Origin: Halogeometricum sp. S3BR5-2
GTDB lineage: Archaea > Halobacteriota > Halobacteria > Halobacteriales > Haloferacaceae
Assembly: GCF_031624635.1 (NCBI RefSeq)
Contig: NZ_JAMQOQ010000003.1
Location: 248,001 to 312,000 of the forward strand
Length of the DNA: 64,000 nucleotides
Direction of reading: 5' to 3'
A model generated the notes under the pieces. It did not search any database. It was not told the DNA's origin and was given only the letters and a program-made list of their open reading frames with translations. The first letter of the stretch is position 1. Each line of letters begins with the position of its first letter. This document shows, one piece after another, positions 52,816-63,211 of this stretch. A program made the translations under genes and the position numbers.

Positions 52816-54063
52816 TCAGTCGCCAACAACAGGCCGGTGACTCCCGCCGTTCAACGTCCCACCATTTATACGCAGGTCTACTTCTGCGTCTCCGCTCCCC
52901 GACGTGGGCGAGGAACGGAGTCTGTGGATTCGATTTCGAGCGTACCGTAGCCCGATGTTTTTCGCGCCGTTGTAGTCCGCGTTCACCTCGTATCCGCACT
53001 TCTGGCAACAGAACTGTTCCCCGTGGCGGTTGTCCTCATGCGTGAACCCACAGTCCGTCCGAGAACAGCGTTGGGACGTGTGGTTCGGCTCAACCTGCTC
53101 CACGGAGACGCCGTGTTCCGGTGCTTTGTAGGAGACGTACTCAAACAGGCGTCGGAACGCCCAGACGTGGTGCCACTTCGCGTGCGGAAGCCGCTCACGA
53201 ATGTCGGTCAAATCCTCGAACACGATAGCGTCGCAGTCGTGTTCCACGGCCTCCGTGACGAGTTCGTTGGCGACCGTGTGGATATACTGTTTCCGCCATG
53301 CGTCTTCACGCTTCCCGAGGCGAAGCAGGGCGTTGTGCGCGGCCTGGGTGCCGCGCTGTTGCATCTCACCACGTCGCTTCTCGAACTCACGGCACCAGTG
53401 GTCGTAGTCGTCTCCCTGCCAGAACGTGCCGGTCGAGGAGACGGCGAGGCTGTTGACGCCGAGGTCGATACCGAGGACCGTTTGGTCGGGGTGCCCGGTA
53501 TCTGCCGAAACCTCTGCGTTACCGTCTCTCCGCCGAGTCGATATTTGGATGTAGAACTCTTCGTTCACTGCGTCGTATCGAACCGTACTCTCTCGGAACT
53601 CATACTCATCGGAGAGGACGTACTGCTCGTAGGGTGTCGGACTATCTGCCGGGAGAACGAACGACGGTTCGACGCGGCCCTCAACAGTTGCCAGCGACAC
53701 CTTGTTTCGGTAGAAGGTCGCGCTCCGCGCGTCGTAGTCCATCGTTTTGGCGGTGAACGTCGGACAAGAGATACGTTGTCCCTTCTTCCATCGTTCGATA
53801 ACGCCTTTGACGGCTTCGACAGCGCGTTTGATGGCGGCTTGGACGAGCTGTGCCTGTAGGTCCGTCTCCTCTCGAAGTTCGGAGTAGAGCGCGTCACGAA
53901 CCTCTCGCTTGTTGGTCTTGCACTCGGTGTAGGATGTGTCGGACCAACAGTAGTCGGCGGTTCGGTTCGCGCAGTACAGGTATTGCTCGGCGGTTCGGTG
54001 GAGTGCGTCGCGCTGGTCGTCGGAAACGGCGAGTTTCACGACTGCAGTTCGACGCACCTCCAT
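52816..54063 (-). CDS. tnpB: TnpB RNA-guided endonuclease, RuvC intact
   Basis: 415 residues from ATG 54063 (MEVRRTAVVKLAVSDDQRDA). RuvC residues are present: Asp200 in VLGIDLGVNSLAV, Glu283 in AIVFEDLTDIRERL, and Asp363 in NADYNGAKNIG. The zinc ribbon CSRTDCG (Cys333, Cys338) and CCQKCG (Cys353, Cys356) is complete. An N-terminal helix/barrel region precedes RuvC. TnpB proteins cut DNA guided by an omega RNA made from the element's right end and promote its retention. The frame is open 65 codons further upstream, but that sequence covers the left-end hairpin and is not protein-like. Confidence 0.92.
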   Translation of the reverse strand: MEVRRTAVVKLAVSDDQRDALHRTAEQYLYCANRTADYCWSDTSYTECKTNKREVRDALYSELREETDLQAQLVQAAIKRAVEAVKGVIERWKKGQRISCPTFTAKTMDYDARSATFYRNKVSLATVEGRVEPSFVLPADSPTPYEQYVLSDEYEFRESTVRYDAVNEEFYIQISTRRRDGNAEVSADTGHPDQTVLGIDLGVNSLAVSSTGTFWQGDDYDHWCREFEKRRGEMQQRGTQAAHNALLRLGKREDAWRKQYIHTVANELVTEAVEHDCDAIVFEDLTDIRERLPHAKWHHVWAFRRLFEYVSYKAPEHGVSVEQVEPNHTSQRCSRTDCGFTHEDNRHGEQFCCQKCGYEVNADYNGAKNIGLRYARNRIHRLRSSPTSGSGDAEVDLRINGGTLNGGSHRPVVGD

Positions 54064-54302
54064 ATCTTCAGAGAGTACCCGACGGTACTTGAACGTATGG
54101 GAGTCGGTCGGTCGGAGTATGCCGGTTGTATCGTACCGTTTCGGTTTCCTCTCCGGCCTACTCGCTCCCTCCGATACGCTTCGGTCGCTCCTTGAGGCCG
54201 GAGGCTCCACCTCGAAAACGCTGAATCCGCCCGGTCCTCTCGTCTCTTTCCCTCCCACCGCACATTTTTGTACCGAGCGGCGGCCCCGGTTCCGCCACCG
54301 AG

Positions 54303-55319: not shown

Positions 55320-55610
55320 TCAGTCGGCGGCGACGTTGGGCGACGGGACGGGCGTGACGTCGACGTTCCACGCCTGGTCGACGACGACTTCGCACCCGGC
55401 GAGCGTGAACGTCACGTGTCCTTCAACCAGCGCCGTCTGGTTCGGCATCCCGACGAACAGGTCCTTCACGGCGTCGAGGTCGACCACGTCGTACAGTCGC
55501 TCGTCGAGGTCCAGCGGTTCGACGCCCTTCTCCTCGGCCACCGCGCTGACGATCTTCCAGTCGAGTTCCTCGTCCACCGTCGCACCGTCGTTCCCCTCCA
55601 TCTGATTCAT
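55320..55610 (-). CDS. HalOD1-domain protein
   Basis: 96 residues. Matches the haloarchaeal output domain HalOD1: EELDWKIVSAVAEEKGVEPL, DLDERLYDVVDLDAVKDLFV, HVTFTLAGCEVVVDQAWNVDV. HalOD1 is a short domain found alone or at the end of signalling proteins; its molecular role is not established. It ends convergent with DedA and lies about 155 bp downstream of the Bat-like regulator on the same strand. Confidence 0.85.
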   Translation of the reverse strand: MNQMEGNDGATVDEELDWKIVSAVAEEKGVEPLDLDERLYDVVDLDAVKDLFVGMPNQTALVEGHVTFTLAGCEVVVDQAWNVDVTPVPSPNVAAD

Positions 55611-55766: not shown

Positions 55767-58598
55767 TCAGCGGCGGGTTCGGCGCTCGTCCGCCAGCAGA
55801 TTGTCGAGCAGTTTGCGCTCGGCGACGCGGAGGTGCCGCGCGAACGTGGGTTGTGCGACGCCCAGCGACTCCGCGAGGTCGCTCGCCGTTCGCTCGCGCG
55901 GCCAGGCGAAGTACCCCGAGAAGTAGGCGGTGCGCAGCGCCTCGAACTGCCGGTCGGTCAGCGCCTCTCTGAGACCCGCGCGGAAGGACTGTTGGGTCTC
56001 TATCGACCGCTCGCGCGTCCGCTTGGCGCTCAGTTCGGTGCCGGGGTACTGCTCCTGTAGGAGTTCGACGAACTCGCGCACGTCCGACCCGGGGGCGAGT
56101 TCGACGACGACGTCGAGGGCGTCGGGCGTCGAGGTGAGCGTGCGGACGACGGCGCCGAGGTCGGCGAGTCGGGACGGGAGCGCCTCGGCGGCCAACTGCA
56201 CCTCGACCAGCGTCTCCGAGTCCCGTTCGACGACCTTCCGAACCCGCTCGACCACTGTCAGCGACGACAGCGACTCGATGTCGGTGTCGGACCCCTGCAC
56301 CGTCAGGTACAGCAGCGACGACCCCGAGGGCTGGGGCACCGTCCCCTCCAACCGGATCTGACCGCCGAAGGCCTGTGAGATGCGGAGCAGCGGGGCGTTG
56401 GGGCTGGTGATGCGGATATCGAGTTCGATGAGCGATTCGGTGTGCAGCGACTCCTTCGCCTCCGCGCCGTTGATGGCGTTGGCCGTCGTGACACCGAGTT
56501 CCTCGAACATGAGCCTCGTCCGTTCGTCGAACGCGTTCGGTTCGGTCGCGTAGACGGTCAGGGCGCCGTAGCTGAACTCGCCGTACGTCAGCGGGAAACT
56601 GGCGACGGAGACGAACCCCCTGTCCAGGGCGTCGCGTCGCCACTGGTACTCCTGAATCCGCTGACCCGCGTTGTCGACGACGGTCGTCTCGCTGTTCCGG
56701 ATGGCCTGCACGCTCGGTTCGACCTCGAACGCCTCGGGGTCGTCCGTCAGGCAGTCGAGATACCCTCGTTCGGCGCCCGCCCACGCGCGCGGAACGACGG
56801 ACTCGGAGACGCGGTCGTACGTGCCGACCCACGCGAAGGCGATGGACGGTCCGTCCACCAACTGCTCGCACACCGCCTTCTCGATGGCCTCGCGGGAGTC
56901 CGCCTCGACGAGAACGCGGTTCACCTCGCGCAGGAGTTCGTTGAAACGGTTGAGGCTGGTCAGTTCCTCGTTCCGCCGGGAGAGTTCGCCCCTGCGACGT
57001 TCGAGTTCGACCGACCGGGCCACGCGGTCGAGCGCCGCCTCGGCGTTCGCGGCCAAGAGGTGCGTCAGAGTCGACTGCCCGCGCGGGGCGTCCTCCGCCG
57101 CGGACACGGTCGCCAGCACGCCGTGCTCGCCGAGCGGAATCACGACGCTCTCGCCGCTCGACGCCTCCGGCGCGTCCGCGGGCGCGAGTTCGTCCCACTC
57201 TTCGAGCGTCGTCTCGACGGTCCCCAGCGTTATCGACTCGTGCTCCGCGAAACACGTCCACAGCGCGCCGTCGCCCGGCCCGATGCGCGCGGGCGTTCCC
57301 TCGCCCTCCCACGCCACCGGTTGGAGCGCGCCCGCCTCCTCGTCGTAGAGGTAGACGACGACCGACTCCAGTTCGAGAATATCCGTCGCCGTGTCCAACA
57401 CCGTCTCGCCGACGTCGGGTTTCGTCTGCGACTCGAACAGTTCGTGTGCCGACCGGTTCAGCGACGTCAGCGTCTCTTCGTACCGTTTTCTGTCCGTGAT
57501 GTCGCGGATGACCCCGACCATCCCGTGGGAGCCGTCGGCGAAGGAGAGCGCGGAGAAGCGCGTCTCCACGGGGAGGGAGCTCCCGTCCGCCGTCTCCAAC
57601 TCGACGTCGAGGCGACCGTCCGACCGCTCGCCCATCAGTATCTCCTGGATGAGGGCGCTCGCCTCCACGATGACCGACTCGTCCGCGAGCATCGTCGAGT
57701 GCGACCCGACCAGTTCCTCGCGGTCGTACCCCGTCATCTGCGTGACGGCGTCGTTGACCTCCGTGATGAGGAAGTTCTCGTCGAGGATGTAGATACCGTC
57801 GTCGATGGTCTCCAGTATTCGTTCGTAGCGGTCCAGCGACTCCCGCGTCTCCGTCTCCTCGGTGATGTCCCGGACCCGAACCACCACCCCGTCGCGCAGC
57901 GGAACGACTCGGCCCGACAGGCGCCGTCCGTCGGGAAGCGCCTCTTCGAACGGCGTCGCCTCCCCGGACAGCACTGTCTCCCAACACGACGCTCTGACCG
58001 CGCGCACGGCTGGGTAGTCGGCCCACAGATGCGCGTCGGCGTCCGCGGGCGAGCGGTCGGAGCCTGCCTCGCCGTCTGAGAGTTCGTCGGCGTCGGAACC
58101 GTCCGCCGCGCGTTCGCCCACGAGTTCGGCGAACGCGTCGGTCGCCGCCCCGACCCGCCAGCGTCGGTCGAGGACGCACGCCGCGTCGCCGAACGCGGCC
58201 GCGGCGTCGACCAGCGTCGCCGCCGGCGTCTCGTCCTCGGCGTCGAGTTCGTCGGCTCCCGAGAGCCACGCGACCTGCGCGGGGAGCGTCTCGGAAGGAG
58301 CGAGGACGTCCGTCGCGCCGGCGCGGTAGGCGGTCCTTACCGACTCGTCGTCGGGGTTCGAGAGGACGACCACGAGAGGGGCGGCGCCGAGCTCGGCCGG
58401 CACGGCGTCGACGGTCGTACAGACGAGACAGTCCGCGTCCGCGGTCGCGCCCGCACGCGCGTCGTCCCCTTCGGGTACGGGTAGAAGCGAGATGCGTTCG
58501 TCGTCGCGGAGGAGACTGCGGACGTCCGAGGTGCGGTCGCCGTCGCCGAGGAGACGGACTCGCACCGCGGACTGGGTCGCAGTCGACTCGGCGGTCAT
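55767..58598 (-). CDS. Bat-like sensor-regulator (PAS, GAF, bacterioopsin-activator and HTH domains)
   Basis: 943 residues from ATG 58598. Domains in order: receiver-like N-terminus without a clear phosphorylatable pattern (about 1-100), PAS (about 130-235), PAS with RYERILETIDDGIYILDENF and VGVIRDITDRKRYEETLTSL (about 255-375), GAF (about 390-540), a second GAF-like segment (about 575-715), a bacterioopsin-activator domain (about 725-880) and a C-terminal HTH (ALTDRQFEALRTAYFSGYFA, then PRERTASDLAESLGVAQPTF). Bat of Halobacterium controls bacterioopsin and isoprenoid genes in response to oxygen or light. Here it is divergent from a terpene-synthase-like gene. A CTTATT box about 28 nt before the ATG suggests a leaderless transcript. 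Confidence 0.88.
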   Translation of the reverse strand: MTAESTATQSAVRVRLLGDGDRTSDVRSLLRDDERISLLPVPEGDDARAGATADADCLVCTTVDAVPAELGAAPLVVVLSNPDDESVRTAYRAGATDVLAPSETLPAQVAWLSGADELDAEDETPAATLVDAAAAFGDAACVLDRRWRVGAATDAFAELVGERAADGSDADELSDGEAGSDRSPADADAHLWADYPAVRAVRASCWETVLSGEATPFEEALPDGRRLSGRVVPLRDGVVVRVRDITEETETRESLDRYERILETIDDGIYILDENFLITEVNDAVTQMTGYDREELVGSHSTMLADESVIVEASALIQEILMGERSDGRLDVELETADGSSLPVETRFSALSFADGSHGMVGVIRDITDRKRYEETLTSLNRSAHELFESQTKPDVGETVLDTATDILELESVVVYLYDEEAGALQPVAWEGEGTPARIGPGDGALWTCFAEHESITLGTVETTLEEWDELAPADAPEASSGESVVIPLGEHGVLATVSAAEDAPRGQSTLTHLLAANAEAALDRVARSVELERRRGELSRRNEELTSLNRFNELLREVNRVLVEADSREAIEKAVCEQLVDGPSIAFAWVGTYDRVSESVVPRAWAGAERGYLDCLTDDPEAFEVEPSVQAIRNSETTVVDNAGQRIQEYQWRRDALDRGFVSVASFPLTYGEFSYGALTVYATEPNAFDERTRLMFEELGVTTANAINGAEAKESLHTESLIELDIRITSPNAPLLRISQAFGGQIRLEGTVPQPSGSSLLYLTVQGSDTDIESLSSLTVVERVRKVVERDSETLVEVQLAAEALPSRLADLGAVVRTLTSTPDALDVVVELAPGSDVREFVELLQEQYPGTELSAKRTRERSIETQQSFRAGLREALTDRQFEALRTAYFSGYFAWPRERTASDLAESLGVAQPTFARHLRVAERKLLDNLLADERRTRR

Positions 58599-58786
58599 GG
58601 GACGCAGGTAGCGCGCCGCCGACAATAAGTGGTCGTGTCACGTCGAACGGAAAATTCACGAATGAGAGAATATACTGGCCGAATGCGGCAAGAAGTGCAG
58701 ATATAATGTTCATATTATACTGAATTTCTCAGGAATGGTAGCTTTAAGGAGGAAGATTAATATGTTATCGGCGTATTAATCGGAGT
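58599..58786. promoter_or_regulatory. Shared divergent promoter region with leader mini-ORF
   Basis: The 188-bp AT-rich gap holds candidate TATA boxes for the plus strand (ATATAAT 58701-58707; ATATTATAC 58712-58720). AAGGAGG at 58746-58752 is followed by ATG at 58762 and a five-codon frame (MLSAY) that stops at 58779, 8 nt before the ATG of the next gene. For the minus strand, a box at 58624-58630 serves the Bat-like gene. Confidence 0.45.
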
Positions 58787-59764
58787 ATGTCGGGGAGAGC
58801 AGCATACCAGCACTCGGATGGGGTCCTGGGGGGGACTCAAGTTGACTGTATCGAAGCCGTTAAGCAAACCGAACTACCGCCGCGGGTCCGCGAACTCTCG
58901 GACGAGTACGACCGGGTCGTGGGGGACAGAGACGTGTTCCTCTGGCAGTGGATCCACCGCCTGTTCGACGCGTTCACGCTCCCGTGCGTCCCGTCGGACG
59001 TGATGGAGGAAGTCAAGACGACGAAGACGATGCTCACGATGTACATTACCGTCCTCGACGACTTGGCCGACCACTTCGGCGACCAAGAGACGTTCGAGCA
59101 GGCGCGCCGCCTGCCGTACGCGCCCGAGTCGATCCGCTACGACGCGCCCGGCGTCGACACGGATATTCTGGAGTTCGCCGAGACGCTCTGGAACGAGGTT
59201 AATAGCAGATTAACGGACGCTCCGTGCTACGACGAGCACCTCGACGTGTTCCAGTTCGACCTTCGCCAGGCGCTCAACGCGATGGAGTACGCGCGCGTCC
59301 TCAACGACAACCGCGAGATAGCTAACTTGGAAGAGTCCCAGCACTACGGCCCGTTCAACATGGTGATGTTCCCGTACGCGGGCATCGACATCATGTGGAC
59401 GCCCTCGTTCGACCGCACGGAGTTAGGGGAACTCCGCGAACTGCTCCTCGAACTGCAGGGGATGGCCCGCATCGGTAACTGGGTGACCACGTGGGAACGC
59501 GAACTGCACGAGGACGACTACACGGCCGGCGTCGTCGTCGACGCCCTCGACAAGGGCATCATCACGACCGACGACGAACCCGACCGGGCCATCGCGGCGA
59601 TCCGGGAGGACGGCGTGGCCGAACGGTTCGAAGACGAGTGGTACGAGCGCTACGAGGCCGTCTCCGAACGCGAGTTCGACATCGAGAGCTTCGAGGTGGA
59701 CCGTCTGATTCGGGGGATGAAGACGGTGATGGAGTTCCACGTTTCGAGCTACGGCCAGAAGTAA
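58787..59764 (+). CDS. Class I terpene-synthase-like protein
   Basis: 325 residues, the usual length of microbial single-domain terpene cyclases. Two metal/diphosphate motifs of the class I fold are visible at the expected spacing: the Asp-rich DDLAD at 91-95 within MYITVLDDLADHFGD, and NWVTTWERE at 231-239, which fits the NSE motif N-x-x-x-[ST]-x-x-x-E. The rest is all-helical and acidic, as in haloarchaeal proteins. Such enzymes ionise a prenyl diphosphate with Mg2+ and cyclise or hydrolyse it. I know of no named haloarchaeal enzyme matching this, so activity and substrate are inference. A related class I prenyltransferase-like role is possible. Divergent from a Bat-like regulator. Confidence 0.65.
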   Translation: MSGRAAYQHSDGVLGGTQVDCIEAVKQTELPPRVRELSDEYDRVVGDRDVFLWQWIHRLFDAFTLPCVPSDVMEEVKTTKTMLTMYITVLDDLADHFGDQETFEQARRLPYAPESIRYDAPGVDTDILEFAETLWNEVNSRLTDAPCYDEHLDVFQFDLRQALNAMEYARVLNDNREIANLEESQHYGPFNMVMFPYAGIDIMWTPSFDRTELGELRELLLELQGMARIGNWVTTWERELHEDDYTAGVVVDALDKGIITTDDEPDRAIAAIREDGVAERFEDEWYERYEAVSEREFDIESFEVDRLIRGMKTVMEFHVSSYGQK

Positions 59765-59858: not shown

Positions 59859-61043
59859 ATGCATCTGGGGGACGCCCGCGACGGAACGCTGTACTGCACG
59901 TCGGGTCTGGAGTCCGTCGTGGTGAATCCCGCGGACCGAACGGAAGTGCGGAGTCGGTTTCCGAGTCCACCCGGCGCGTCCGACCGAGTCCCGTTCGAGA
60001 CGCTGCACTCGTCGCTCGGAAAGTCGCTTCTCGCGCCGGTCACGGGGCGCTACCAGTCGTCGAACCTCTGGGCGCTCTCGGCGGAGTCGCTTCTCGCCAA
60101 CGTCGGCCCGCGCGTCTATCGCTCCGGAGACGGCGGTCGCTCGTGGACGCACGTCCTCGACCTTCCCCCGTCGTCGCCGCCGAAGGGGCTCTTACCCAGT
60201 TCCGTCTGCCGGCACGACGGCGCCGTCTACCTCTCCGAGTACGCCCTCAGCGACGAACCGGGTCGCATTCGCGTCAGCGACGACGACGGCCGCTCCTGGT
60301 CGGTGCTTCTCGAACGCGACGACGTGCGGCACTTCCACGGCGTCTACACTGACCCATACGGCGAGACGCTCTGGGCGAACACGGGGGACAGAGACGACGA
60401 GAGCTCTATCGGCGTCGTCGTCGACGGCCGGTACGAACCCCTCGGGTCCGGAAGCCAGGCGTGGCGCGGCGTCCAACTCGGGTTCACGCCCGAGGCCGTG
60501 TTCTGGGGCAAGGACGCCTCGTTCGCCGCGGAGAAACCCATCTACAAGCTCCCCCGCGAACGCCTCTCGGAGCCGAACCCCGTTCCGGACGTCGTCGGAA
60601 CCACAGAGGGCGTTCTCTTCTACGTCGAGACGGTCGAACACGGGGGCGAGCACTACGTCGTCGGGTCGGCGAGTTCGCAGACGGGTATCGACAGCACGGC
60701 CCCACCCGACCGTCGACAGAATACCTGTTCGCGCGAGGTACGCGTTCTTGTCGCCTCCAGTGCGGACGACTACGGGTCTTGGCACGAACTCTGCTCCTTC
60801 GAGCGCCGACGCACTCTCGGCGACGTGCTCCCGCGGGTGCCGACGACGGACGCGCACGCCTTCGTCCGCGTCGACCCGGAACTCGGTCTCCTGATCAACC
60901 CGTGCAACACGAGCACGCGCGACGGACGGGTGCTCCGGATGCCGTTGTCGCGCGTCGCAGAAACCGTCGAGTCCGGACCGACGCACGCGCCGTCCCGACC
61001 GTTTTCGTCCGTTCGGGACGCTGCGAAGCGTTTCGTCCGCTGA
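59859..61043 (+). CDS. Asp-box (BNR/sialidase-like) propeller protein
   Basis: 394 residues without a signal peptide. Two Asp-box motifs are plain: YRSGDGGRSWTHVLDLP and RVSDDDGRSWSVLLERDD, the S-x-D-x-G-x-x-W hairpin of sialidase-type propellers. Other blades include YGETLWANTGDRDDESSIGV and EAVFWGKDASFAAEKPIYKL. No catalytic Arg triad or Tyr/Glu pair of true sialidases can be assigned. It may be a glycan-binding or scaffold protein of the surrounding pathway. It starts about 95 bp after the terpene-synthase-like gene on the same strand. Confidence 0.75.
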   Translation: MHLGDARDGTLYCTSGLESVVVNPADRTEVRSRFPSPPGASDRVPFETLHSSLGKSLLAPVTGRYQSSNLWALSAESLLANVGPRVYRSGDGGRSWTHVLDLPPSSPPKGLLPSSVCRHDGAVYLSEYALSDEPGRIRVSDDDGRSWSVLLERDDVRHFHGVYTDPYGETLWANTGDRDDESSIGVVVDGRYEPLGSGSQAWRGVQLGFTPEAVFWGKDASFAAEKPIYKLPRERLSEPNPVPDVVGTTEGVLFYVETVEHGGEHYVVGSASSQTGIDSTAPPDRRQNTCSREVRVLVASSADDYGSWHELCSFERRRTLGDVLPRVPTTDAHAFVRVDPELGLLINPCNTSTRDGRVLRMPLSRVAETVESGPTHAPSRPFSSVRDAAKRFVR

Positions 61044-61106: not shown

Positions 61107-61925
61107 TCAGAGGGTGACGAGGTAGTAGGGGTCCTCGCGGAGTTCGGCGCCGAGAACCGCTTCTACTTTGTCGAGCCGAGAGATGTAGACGTTGAGTCCG
61201 TTCAAGTCGTAAGCGTCCAACGCGTCTGCGCGCCGGAGACGACGCATTATCTTCGGTTTGTTCCACGAGTACAGCGGCGACGTCAGCGTCTCGTAGGTCT
61301 GCTCGGTCCGTTCGTACTCCGTGGGCGTCCGGTAGACGACGCCCTCGTGGGTCCGCGTCTCCACGTACGGCACGTCGTACTTCGCTTCGAGGTAGTGGAG
61401 GTGCGAGCAGGTGAACCAGGGCGTCCCGACGTTCACCAGGAGCGTTCCCTCGCTCGCCAACCGGGCGAAACAGCCCGCTTCGTGGTACGTGTCGCGGTGG
61501 ACGCAGTCGTCGAACCGGTAGGGTCCCTTCACCAGGAACGACTTTATCGCGTCGTCCGTTCGGTAGTCGGCGTCCTCGTGAAACTGCCGGACGAACGCGC
61601 CGTGCTTCGGTCGCGAGAACCGCTTGTGGTACACCCCCGAGACGGTGAAGTAGTCGGTGAATCCGGGGGCCACGACGCTCTCGAATCGCTCCTCCAGTCG
61701 ACCGAGGAGGAAGCGGTAGGGGTCGGTGTCGAACGCGTCCCTCACGTCGCCGAGGCCGGCGTGAACGAACACCTCGTTGTGCCCGGCGGCGTGTTCGTCT
61801 AGGAGTTCGTCGAACGCCGCCTCGGACGCCCGCGCGGCGCTCCGTCGAAGGCGAATCTGCTTCAGCGTCTGATGTTTCACCAAGTTGCCGACGCGACGCG
61901 CCTGCGTCAGTGCGTTCGCGCACAT
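61107..61925 (-). CDS. AAC(3)-like N-acetyltransferase
   Basis: 272 residues resembling aminoglycoside 3-N-acetyltransferase/YokD proteins: NEVFVHAGLGDVRDAF at the start, LLGRLEERFESVVAPGFTDYF, the KHGAFVRQFHEDADYRTDDAIKS region (family pattern of gaFvr.f...RSdhPihS), and LLVNVGTPWFTCSHLHYLEAKYDVPYVE, with the His-containing segment used in catalysis. In glycan clusters such proteins more likely acetylate an amino sugar than a drug. The basic N-terminus (about 1-35) has no signal. It is divergent from the GT4 gene at 62120. Confidence 0.72.
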   Translation of the reverse strand: MCANALTQARRVGNLVKHQTLKQIRLRRSAARASEAAFDELLDEHAAGHNEVFVHAGLGDVRDAFDTDPYRFLLGRLEERFESVVAPGFTDYFTVSGVYHKRFSRPKHGAFVRQFHEDADYRTDDAIKSFLVKGPYRFDDCVHRDTYHEAGCFARLASEGTLLVNVGTPWFTCSHLHYLEAKYDVPYVETRTHEGVVYRTPTEYERTEQTYETLTSPLYSWNKPKIMRRLRRADALDAYDLNGLNVYISRLDKVEAVLGAELREDPYYLVTL

Positions 61926-62119: not shown

Positions 62120-63211
62120 ATGGACGATATCGACCTGCTGGTCGTTGGGCCGACGGGCGGGAAGGACGGGGGTATCGGTCGGTACATCTCCGAGCAACTG
62201 CGCCACCTCGACGGCCGGGTTTCCGCCCGACTGTTCAACTCGAAGACGCCGTCGGCCGACGGACCGCTCAGCCTCGCCCGCGGCGCCCTCCACGCCGCCG
62301 CCGACTGGGTTCGGTTCGGCCGCGAGTCCCCGCCGGACGTCGTCCACGTTCACACCTCTCATTACCTCTCCTTCTATCTGTCTTCGGCGTACGTTCTCGT
62401 CGCCGCGCGCCGCTGGGACGTGCCGGTCGTCCTGCACGTCCACGGCTCCTCGTTCGACGAGTTCGTCGCGGAGGCGTCCGGTCCCGTCGCCGCCTTCCAG
62501 TCGATGGTCTTCGACGCCTGCGACGCCGTCGTCGTCCTCTCGGAGTACTGGCGCGAGACGCTGTCCGCGCGCGTCGCCGACTCGAAACTGGTCGTCCTGC
62601 CGAACGCGGTGGTCCCGGACGAGTACGATCCCGACGCCGCCGCGGACCCACAGCACGTCGTCTTCGTTTCGAGCCACGTCGAGCGGAAGGGCGTCGTCGA
62701 GTTCACGGAAGCGGTCGCGGCGCTGTACGACCGCGGGTTCGACTTCCGCACCACGGTCGCCGGCTCCGGTCCGCTCTCGTCTCACGCCGAGGCGCTCGCG
62801 GCCGCGTACGACGACGCCGAGTACGTCGGTTACGTGAGCGAGGCCGAAAAACGGAATCTGCTGAGCGACGCCTCGGTGTACGTCCTTCCGACCTACGCCG
62901 AAGGCCTTCCGATCGCTATTCTGGAGGCGATGGCCGGAGGCAACGCCGTCGTTTCGACGGACGTCGGTAGCATCGCTTCGGTCGTCGACGGATCCAACGG
63001 CGCGCTCGTCGACCCGGGCGACGTTGACGACCTCGTCTCGGCGTTAGAGGGTATCCTTCGGAACCCGGAGACGACGGCCCGGATGGGCGCAGAGAGCCGT
63101 CGTCGCGTCGAAGCCGACTACACGTGGAGCGGCGTCGCCGACGAACTCGTCTCGCTGTACGCCCGACTGCTCGGCCGGCCGGTCGAACGACCGGACGCCG
63201 CCCAGCGCTGA
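62120..63211 (+). CDS. GT4-family glycosyltransferase
   Basis: 363 residues, GT-B fold. N-terminal half: LLVVGPTGGKDGGIGRYISE, PDVVHVHTSHYLSFYLSSAY and VVLHVHGSSFDEFVAE. C-terminal donor half: VVFVSSHVERKGVVEFTEAV, TTVAGSGPLSSHAEAL, VGYVSEAEKRNLLSDASVYV and the E-x7-E-type PTYAEGLPIAILEAMAGGNA, with VVSTDVGSIASVVDGSNG. All motifs of the retaining GT4 family are present. Probably adds a sugar to the same glycan as the neighbouring transferases. Confidence 0.92.
   Translation: MDDIDLLVVGPTGGKDGGIGRYISEQLRHLDGRVSARLFNSKTPSADGPLSLARGALHAAADWVRFGRESPPDVVHVHTSHYLSFYLSSAYVLVAARRWDVPVVLHVHGSSFDEFVAEASGPVAAFQSMVFDACDAVVVLSEYWRETLSARVADSKLVVLPNAVVPDEYDPDAAADPQHVVFVSSHVERKGVVEFTEAVAALYDRGFDFRTTVAGSGPLSSHAEALAAAYDDAEYVGYVSEAEKRNLLSDASVYVLPTYAEGLPIAILEAMAGGNAVVSTDVGSIASVVDGSNGALVDPGDVDDLVSALEGILRNPETTARMGAESRRRVEADYTWSGVADELVSLYARLLGRPVERPDAAQR

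Follow-up and report, generated by a model that had tools for sequence, protein, structure and literature searches.

The locus described here raises a double question: what a protein of 325 residues, which matches no Pfam or NCBIfam model, does in a haloarchaeon, and why its gene lies head to head with that of a Bat-type transcription regulator. The window that we analyzed is a stretch of 64,000 nucleotides from the genome of Halogeometricum sp. S3BR5-2, a haloarchaeal genome of 4.66 Mb, and the nearest named relative found is Halogeometricum pallidum, with 94% identity in the synthase protein. Our results make it likely that the gene belongs to a competent, uncharacterised family of class I terpene synthases that is functionally tied to sensory modules.

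The AlphaFold model of the window protein, built from 14 homologs, was all helical, with a mean pLDDT of 86 and a pTM of 0.85. Terpene synthases ranked first in the Foldseek search with this model (E 2.4e-4, TM 0.59), and VIA-align returned terpene synthases throughout, among the matches listed. The alignment with epi-isozizaene synthase (4luu) extended over 278 residues (Z 20.8, rmsd 3.3). Identity to the known terpene synthases in the VIA-align structural alignments was about 8–14%, among the matches listed. We also modelled a divergent Methanosarcina-type relative from a methanogen (L157), which is only 21% identical to the window protein. Its model (pLDDT 91) aligned with tolypothrichol synthase (9kgb) over 277 residues (Z 23.1, rmsd 3.1) and with a pimarane-type diterpene synthase over 255 residues (Z 22.9, rmsd 2.7). 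The predicted class I fold covers the whole domain in both models. The first-pass annotation had proposed a class I terpene cyclase and had made this identity depend on an all-alpha fold; the predicted fold is indeed that of an all-alpha class I terpene synthase.

Searches of PDB sequences with the window protein and with a 14-row profile gave nothing significant, so that the evidence for a relation to enzymes of solved structure comes from the motifs, from the predicted fold and from the Pfam match of one relative. This relative (L078) passes the cut-off of PF19086 (Terpene_syn_C_2) with 30.9 vs 23.7 bits, a cut-off that is not reached by the window protein, and weak matches to the same model were present in 7 of the first 14 homologs. 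The family is related to PF19086, though that model does not capture the window sequence itself. The closest known enzymes are the microbial class I terpene synthases of a single domain (epi-isozizaene, tolypothrichol, hydropyrene and the N-terminal domain of geosmin synthase; PF19086), which have the same length and whole-chain all-alpha fold as the window protein, the same DDxx(D/E) motif on one helix, and the N-x3-(S/T)-x3-E motif with its preceding basic residue on another. Unlike them, the window family has three invariant residues (W232, W236 and D244) surrounding the NSE motif, conserves neither the canonical sensor Arg nor the RY pair, and is archaeal and recurrently associated with sensory genes.

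In known enzymes, helices D and H carry the two metal motifs (PMC10992375). In our model, the conserved DDLAD stands at the end of the helix formed by residues 70-96, corresponding to helix D, and N231, T235 and E239 lie on the helix of residues 210-241, corresponding to helix H; judging from the full-length structural match, both motifs probably face one cavity. The open reading frame translates as the first-pass annotation had read it, with DDLAD at residues 91-95 and NWVTTWERE at 231-239. In the second motif the metal ligands N, T and E are all present, but the motif had to be corrected to N-x3-T-x3-E, with a W where D is usual. Among 115 haloarchaeal and bacterial homologs, residues D92, N231, W232, W236, R238, E239 and D244 are invariant, D91 is kept in 111, position 95 is D or E in all 115, and position 235 is T in 113 and S in two. 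Of 133 homologs, methanogen and Planctomycete members included, 129 have the two motifs at the proper distance from each other, against 6 of 6,650 shuffled sequences, and motifs arising by chance are ruled out by the shuffles together with the conservation. As for the basic residues that bind pyrophosphate, R238 is invariant; the classical sensor Arg and the C-terminal Arg-Tyr pair do not show up as conserved columns, so that pyrophosphate handling may differ in this family or may rely on other residues (R48, R217, R228).

Table 1. Features of the synthase locus, in positions of the window
Feature	Position	Strand	Basis or remark
Class I terpene synthase-like gene	58787..59764	+	ORF, 325 aa; model; structural match
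DDLAD codons (residues 91-95)	59057..59071	+	Mg-binding motif closing helix 70-96
NWVTTWERE codons (residues 231-239)	59477..59503	+	NSE/DTE-type motif, helix 210-241
Bat-type transcription regulator (PAS, GAF, BAT, HTH_10), 943 aa from ATG	55767..58598	-	Pfam; divergent neighbour in 22 loci
Stand-alone HalOD1 protein, 96 aa, downstream of the Bat-type gene	55320..55610	-	PF18545, E 1.4e-16; third member of the triad
Shared divergent promoter region, 188 bp	58599..58786		Alignment of five related loci
Probable BRE and TATA box of the synthase, GGAAGATTAATA, 36 bp before ATG	58751..58762	+	Conserved in 4/5 aligned loci
Probable TATA-like element of the Bat-type gene, CTTATTG, 25 bp before ATG	58623..58629	-	Block conserved in the aligned loci
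Inverted repeat GATTAATA-N11-TATTAATC spanning the synthase promoter	58755..58781		Exact 8-bp form only in the window

Chain-elongating prenyl diphosphate synthases and squalene/phytoene synthases have the same superfamily fold, and FPP synthases were also present among the Foldseek matches of the window model. It is nevertheless very improbable that the gene encodes one of these enzymes instead of a terpene synthase, as terpene synthases head the structural matches, the protein has a single DDxxD with a second motif of the NSE/DTE type, and no squalene/phytoene synthase family match was found for it. Moreover, a PF00348 scan of the genome detected two prenyl diphosphate synthases, a source of substrate, at two other loci, and the window gene was not among them. 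Given the lack of PF00348 membership and the one DDxxD, we rejected an assignment to prenyl diphosphate or squalene/phytoene synthases.

The divergent neighbour of the synthase gene has the same PAS, GAF, BAT and HTH_10 domains as the Bat regulators of haloarchaea, with 142.6 bits for BAT (E 1e-41), 71 bits for HTH_10 (E 7e-20), and PAS and GAF above the cut-off. Its ATG lies at 58598 (-), leaving between the two genes the 188-bp common region that had been noted before. Within it, the BRE/TATA block of the synthase reads GAAGATTGATA in the fifth aligned locus, and because this block lies so close to the ATG in the window, the synthase transcript may be nearly leaderless. The inverted repeat that spans the synthase promoter could, speculatively, be an operator. 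A scan of the 188-bp intergenic region for bacterial sigma-70 promoters returned nothing, as expected in an archaeon.

In Halobacterium, Bat controls bop and brp, within the bop/crtB1 network, and thus acts in an isoprenoid-linked regulon (PMC2253796). The partners of the window regulator are instead a terpene synthase-like gene and a HalOD1 gene. The picture is wider than the first-pass annotation had drawn it: the synthase family pairs with many kinds of sensor, and control by light or redox, in analogy with the Bat of Halobacterium, is one possibility only.

Other genes lie around this group. About 1 kb beyond the HalOD1 gene there is a TnpB-family RNA-guided endonuclease gene (52816-54258, -; NF040570, 164.9 bits). 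Directly downstream of the synthase, an ORF of 394 aa (59859-61043, +) had no match above cut-off and a weak BNR/Asp-box similarity, and it is in no neighbour cluster common to related loci. A protein distantly similar to aminoglycoside N-acetyltransferases, whose Pfam score barely exceeds the cut-off, is encoded at 61107-61925 (-), and its gene is adjoined by that of a GT4 glycosyltransferase (62120-63211, +); these two genes are perhaps part of a surface polysaccharide cluster.

In the profile search, 121 of 391 genomes of haloarchaea, from 39 of 86 genera, had a member of the family, which also occurs in methanogens and in further archaea of the same phylum. Outside the archaea, it was found in 5 of 294 genomes of Planctomycetota and in 1 of 301 of Chloroflexota, the sole carrier being a MAG with a P450-adjacent member. 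Phage records contained no match to the synthase, and we discarded a phage gene on this ground. Tandem duplicated synthase-like copies were observed at two loci (L082:7935-10320 and L168:8977-11089), the second copy of L168 apparently being without the motifs. In the lineage of the window the family is not covered by current models, and RefSeq and public plasmid records call its haloarchaeal members "hypothetical protein". We found neither an archaeal class I terpene synthase nor a terpene synthase-sensor pair described in the open-access literature, which is weak evidence of absence, most subscription journals being outside the scope of that search.

A BAT- or kinase-bearing gene lies within 600 bp of the synthase in 37 of 112 haloarchaeal loci, whereas about 2.6 such loci would be expected from the density of sensor genes in the far flanks; a chance neighbourhood of synthase and sensors is ruled out by this difference. 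By genus, the linkage was seen in 18 of 43, or in 24 of 43 counting HalOD1. The base rate in the window's own genome (43 HTH_10 matches over cut-off and 32 HATPase_c matches in 4.66 Mb) is close to the far-flank density, and therefore HMMs built from neighbours do not explain the enrichment. RefSeq annotation agrees with the sensor neighbours, and synthases beside sensors occur in methanogens and Planctomycetes as well. On the other hand, haloarchaea carry many HalOD1 and Bat genes, which counts against a functional tie. In addition, no sensor gene adjoins the synthase in roughly half of the haloarchaeal loci, the main group of this kind being a large Natrialbaceae-type clade adjoining a cystathionine gamma-synthase gene, so that the coupling is not universal.

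The triad of synthase, Bat and HalOD1 genes was found in three orders. HalOD1-Bat divergent from the synthase, as in the window, occurs in 22 loci, a few of them with no detected HalOD1; Bat-HalOD1-synthase, in a single strand run, in 10; and synthase-Bat-HalOD1 in 3. The link to Bat first noticed in the window is accordingly conserved synteny and not chance, the divergent neighbour being kept throughout the 22-member group. All Bat-triad loci, whatever their order, fall inside one 36-member clade (support 98/97), suggesting that the Bat link probably arose once and then survived rearrangement; being one clade, the Bat-linked loci are not independent events. The kinase-linked label, by contrast, changes at least five times on the synthase tree, which indicates that kinase links were gained or lost several times.

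The sensors themselves are of several kinds. Some haloarchaeal members have small PAS histidine kinases beside them and others a FilR1-type wHTH with HalOD1, while Methanosarcina-type members are directly adjoined by PAS-HisKA_2-type kinases. The synthase genes of Planctomycetes are followed directly by those of giant kinases, built as Pkinase-AAA-TPR-GAF-HisKA or HAMP-HisKA-REC. In a single haloarchaeal protein (L055:7458-8975), REC and HalX stand ahead of the synthase domain. The main text of a census of archaeal two-component systems makes no mention of terpene, isoprenoid or REC-HalX-synthase output (PMC5847659). L055, with REC and HalX preceding an enzyme domain, resembles the response regulators with enzymatic or novel outputs of that census; the stand-alone HalOD1 is a recognised signalling protein. 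The REC fusion was rejected as a general architecture, as only L055 shows it and the REC-like end of L009 is cut by the contig. We also discarded the N-terminal frames of L048, L077, L102, L103, L118 and L138, which by composition look like non-coding frame extensions.

Three Planctomycete members have a long N-terminal extension (L165:5954-7948, L166:5714-7942 and L167:8995-10644), and in all three a giant sensor kinase gene then comes after the synthase. The extensions of L165 and L166 resemble 1-deoxyxylulose-5-phosphate synthase (DXS) or transketolase; that of L167 gave no match. In a further Planctomycete protein (L170:6608-8476), the synthase domain is fused to a CMAS-like SAM methyltransferase, and a Ser/Thr-AAA-GAF-PAS-HisKA_3 kinase and a response regulator come after the fusion. 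A P450 gene follows that of the Chloroflexota member. The DXS-like and methyltransferase fusions and the P450 neighbour fit an isoprenoid-processing enzyme.

The REC-HalX fusion and the recurrent sensor partners would also agree with a catalytically silent relative, one that binds prenyl diphosphates and serves the kinase or Bat-type regulator as an adaptor or a metabolic sensor, and so would the non-canonical pyrophosphate-binding residues. We regard this as improbable. The metal ligands are kept in nearly all of the homologs (129/133), though binding alone could conserve them, and the DXS-like and methyltransferase fusions point to chemistry. As an active enzyme of class I, the synthase would use its DDLAD and N-T-E motifs to hold Mg2+, which would ionise the substrate, a prenyl diphosphate that is probably FPP or GGPP; the resulting carbocation would then be quenched or cyclised, giving a terpene. 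The module of the window lineage would comprise this synthase, the Bat-type PAS/GAF/HTH_10 regulator and the HalOD1 protein, the partner in other lineages being a PAS histidine kinase, a fused REC-HalX receiver or a giant multi-domain kinase. As to the direction of the coupling, control of synthesis by the sensor, which was the reading of the first-pass annotation, and detection of the terpenoid by the sensor seem about equally likely.

It is quite possible, if short of probable, that the synthase is a regulated output only: the Bat-type protein would sense light, redox or another cue and switch the synthase on, and the terpenoid would have a protective or ecological role and not be sensed. 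In favour of this, the synthase and a DNA-binding regulator have divergent promoters in common at 22 loci, Bat controls bop and brp within the bop/crtB1 network of Halobacterium (PMC2253796), and the REC-HalX fusion would place the enzyme under phospho-control. Against this, two of the triad arrangements put sensor and synthase in the same strand run. Besides, the Planctomycete and Methanosarcina-type partners are kinases with no DNA-binding domain of their own, and transcriptional control is not needed there.

The persistence of the linkage while gene order and sensor type vary (Bat, PAS-HK, HisKA_2 HK, Ser/Thr-AAA-GAF-HK, HAMP-HK-REC) suggests another possibility, about as likely: the terpenoid may be bound by the neighbouring PAS/GAF sensor, whether it diffuses as a signal or serves the sensor as a ligand. 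PAS and GAF domains often bind small ligands. In the CqsA-CqsS and RpfF-RpfC systems, the gene of a small-molecule synthase adjoins that of a sensor kinase and the product is a diffusible signal, and heme oxygenase beside phytochrome is a case of an enzyme that supplies the ligand of a sensor. The window family likewise has a synthase gene beside a sensor kinase gene, but its enzyme is an isoprenoid one and its sensors are of several unrelated types. Ordinary natural products would also account for the methyltransferase and P450 near a few members. Somewhat more tentatively, a terpenoid-based signalling common to archaea and some bacteria might exist, in which the product of a dedicated synthase would be detected by a PAS/GAF sensor in an adjoining or fused circuit.

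The fact that genes of this family often lie beside, or are fused to, those of sensory proteins suggests that these microbes make terpenes within a system for sensing or signalling. Should the enzymes prove active, about a third of the haloarchaea sampled, as well as methanogens, would hold terpene chemistry that current annotation has missed. The pairing with sensors makes two questions testable: whether archaea make cyclic terpenoids via class I synthases, and whether terpenoids have a role in sensing or cell-cell signalling, a subject little explored in haloarchaea.
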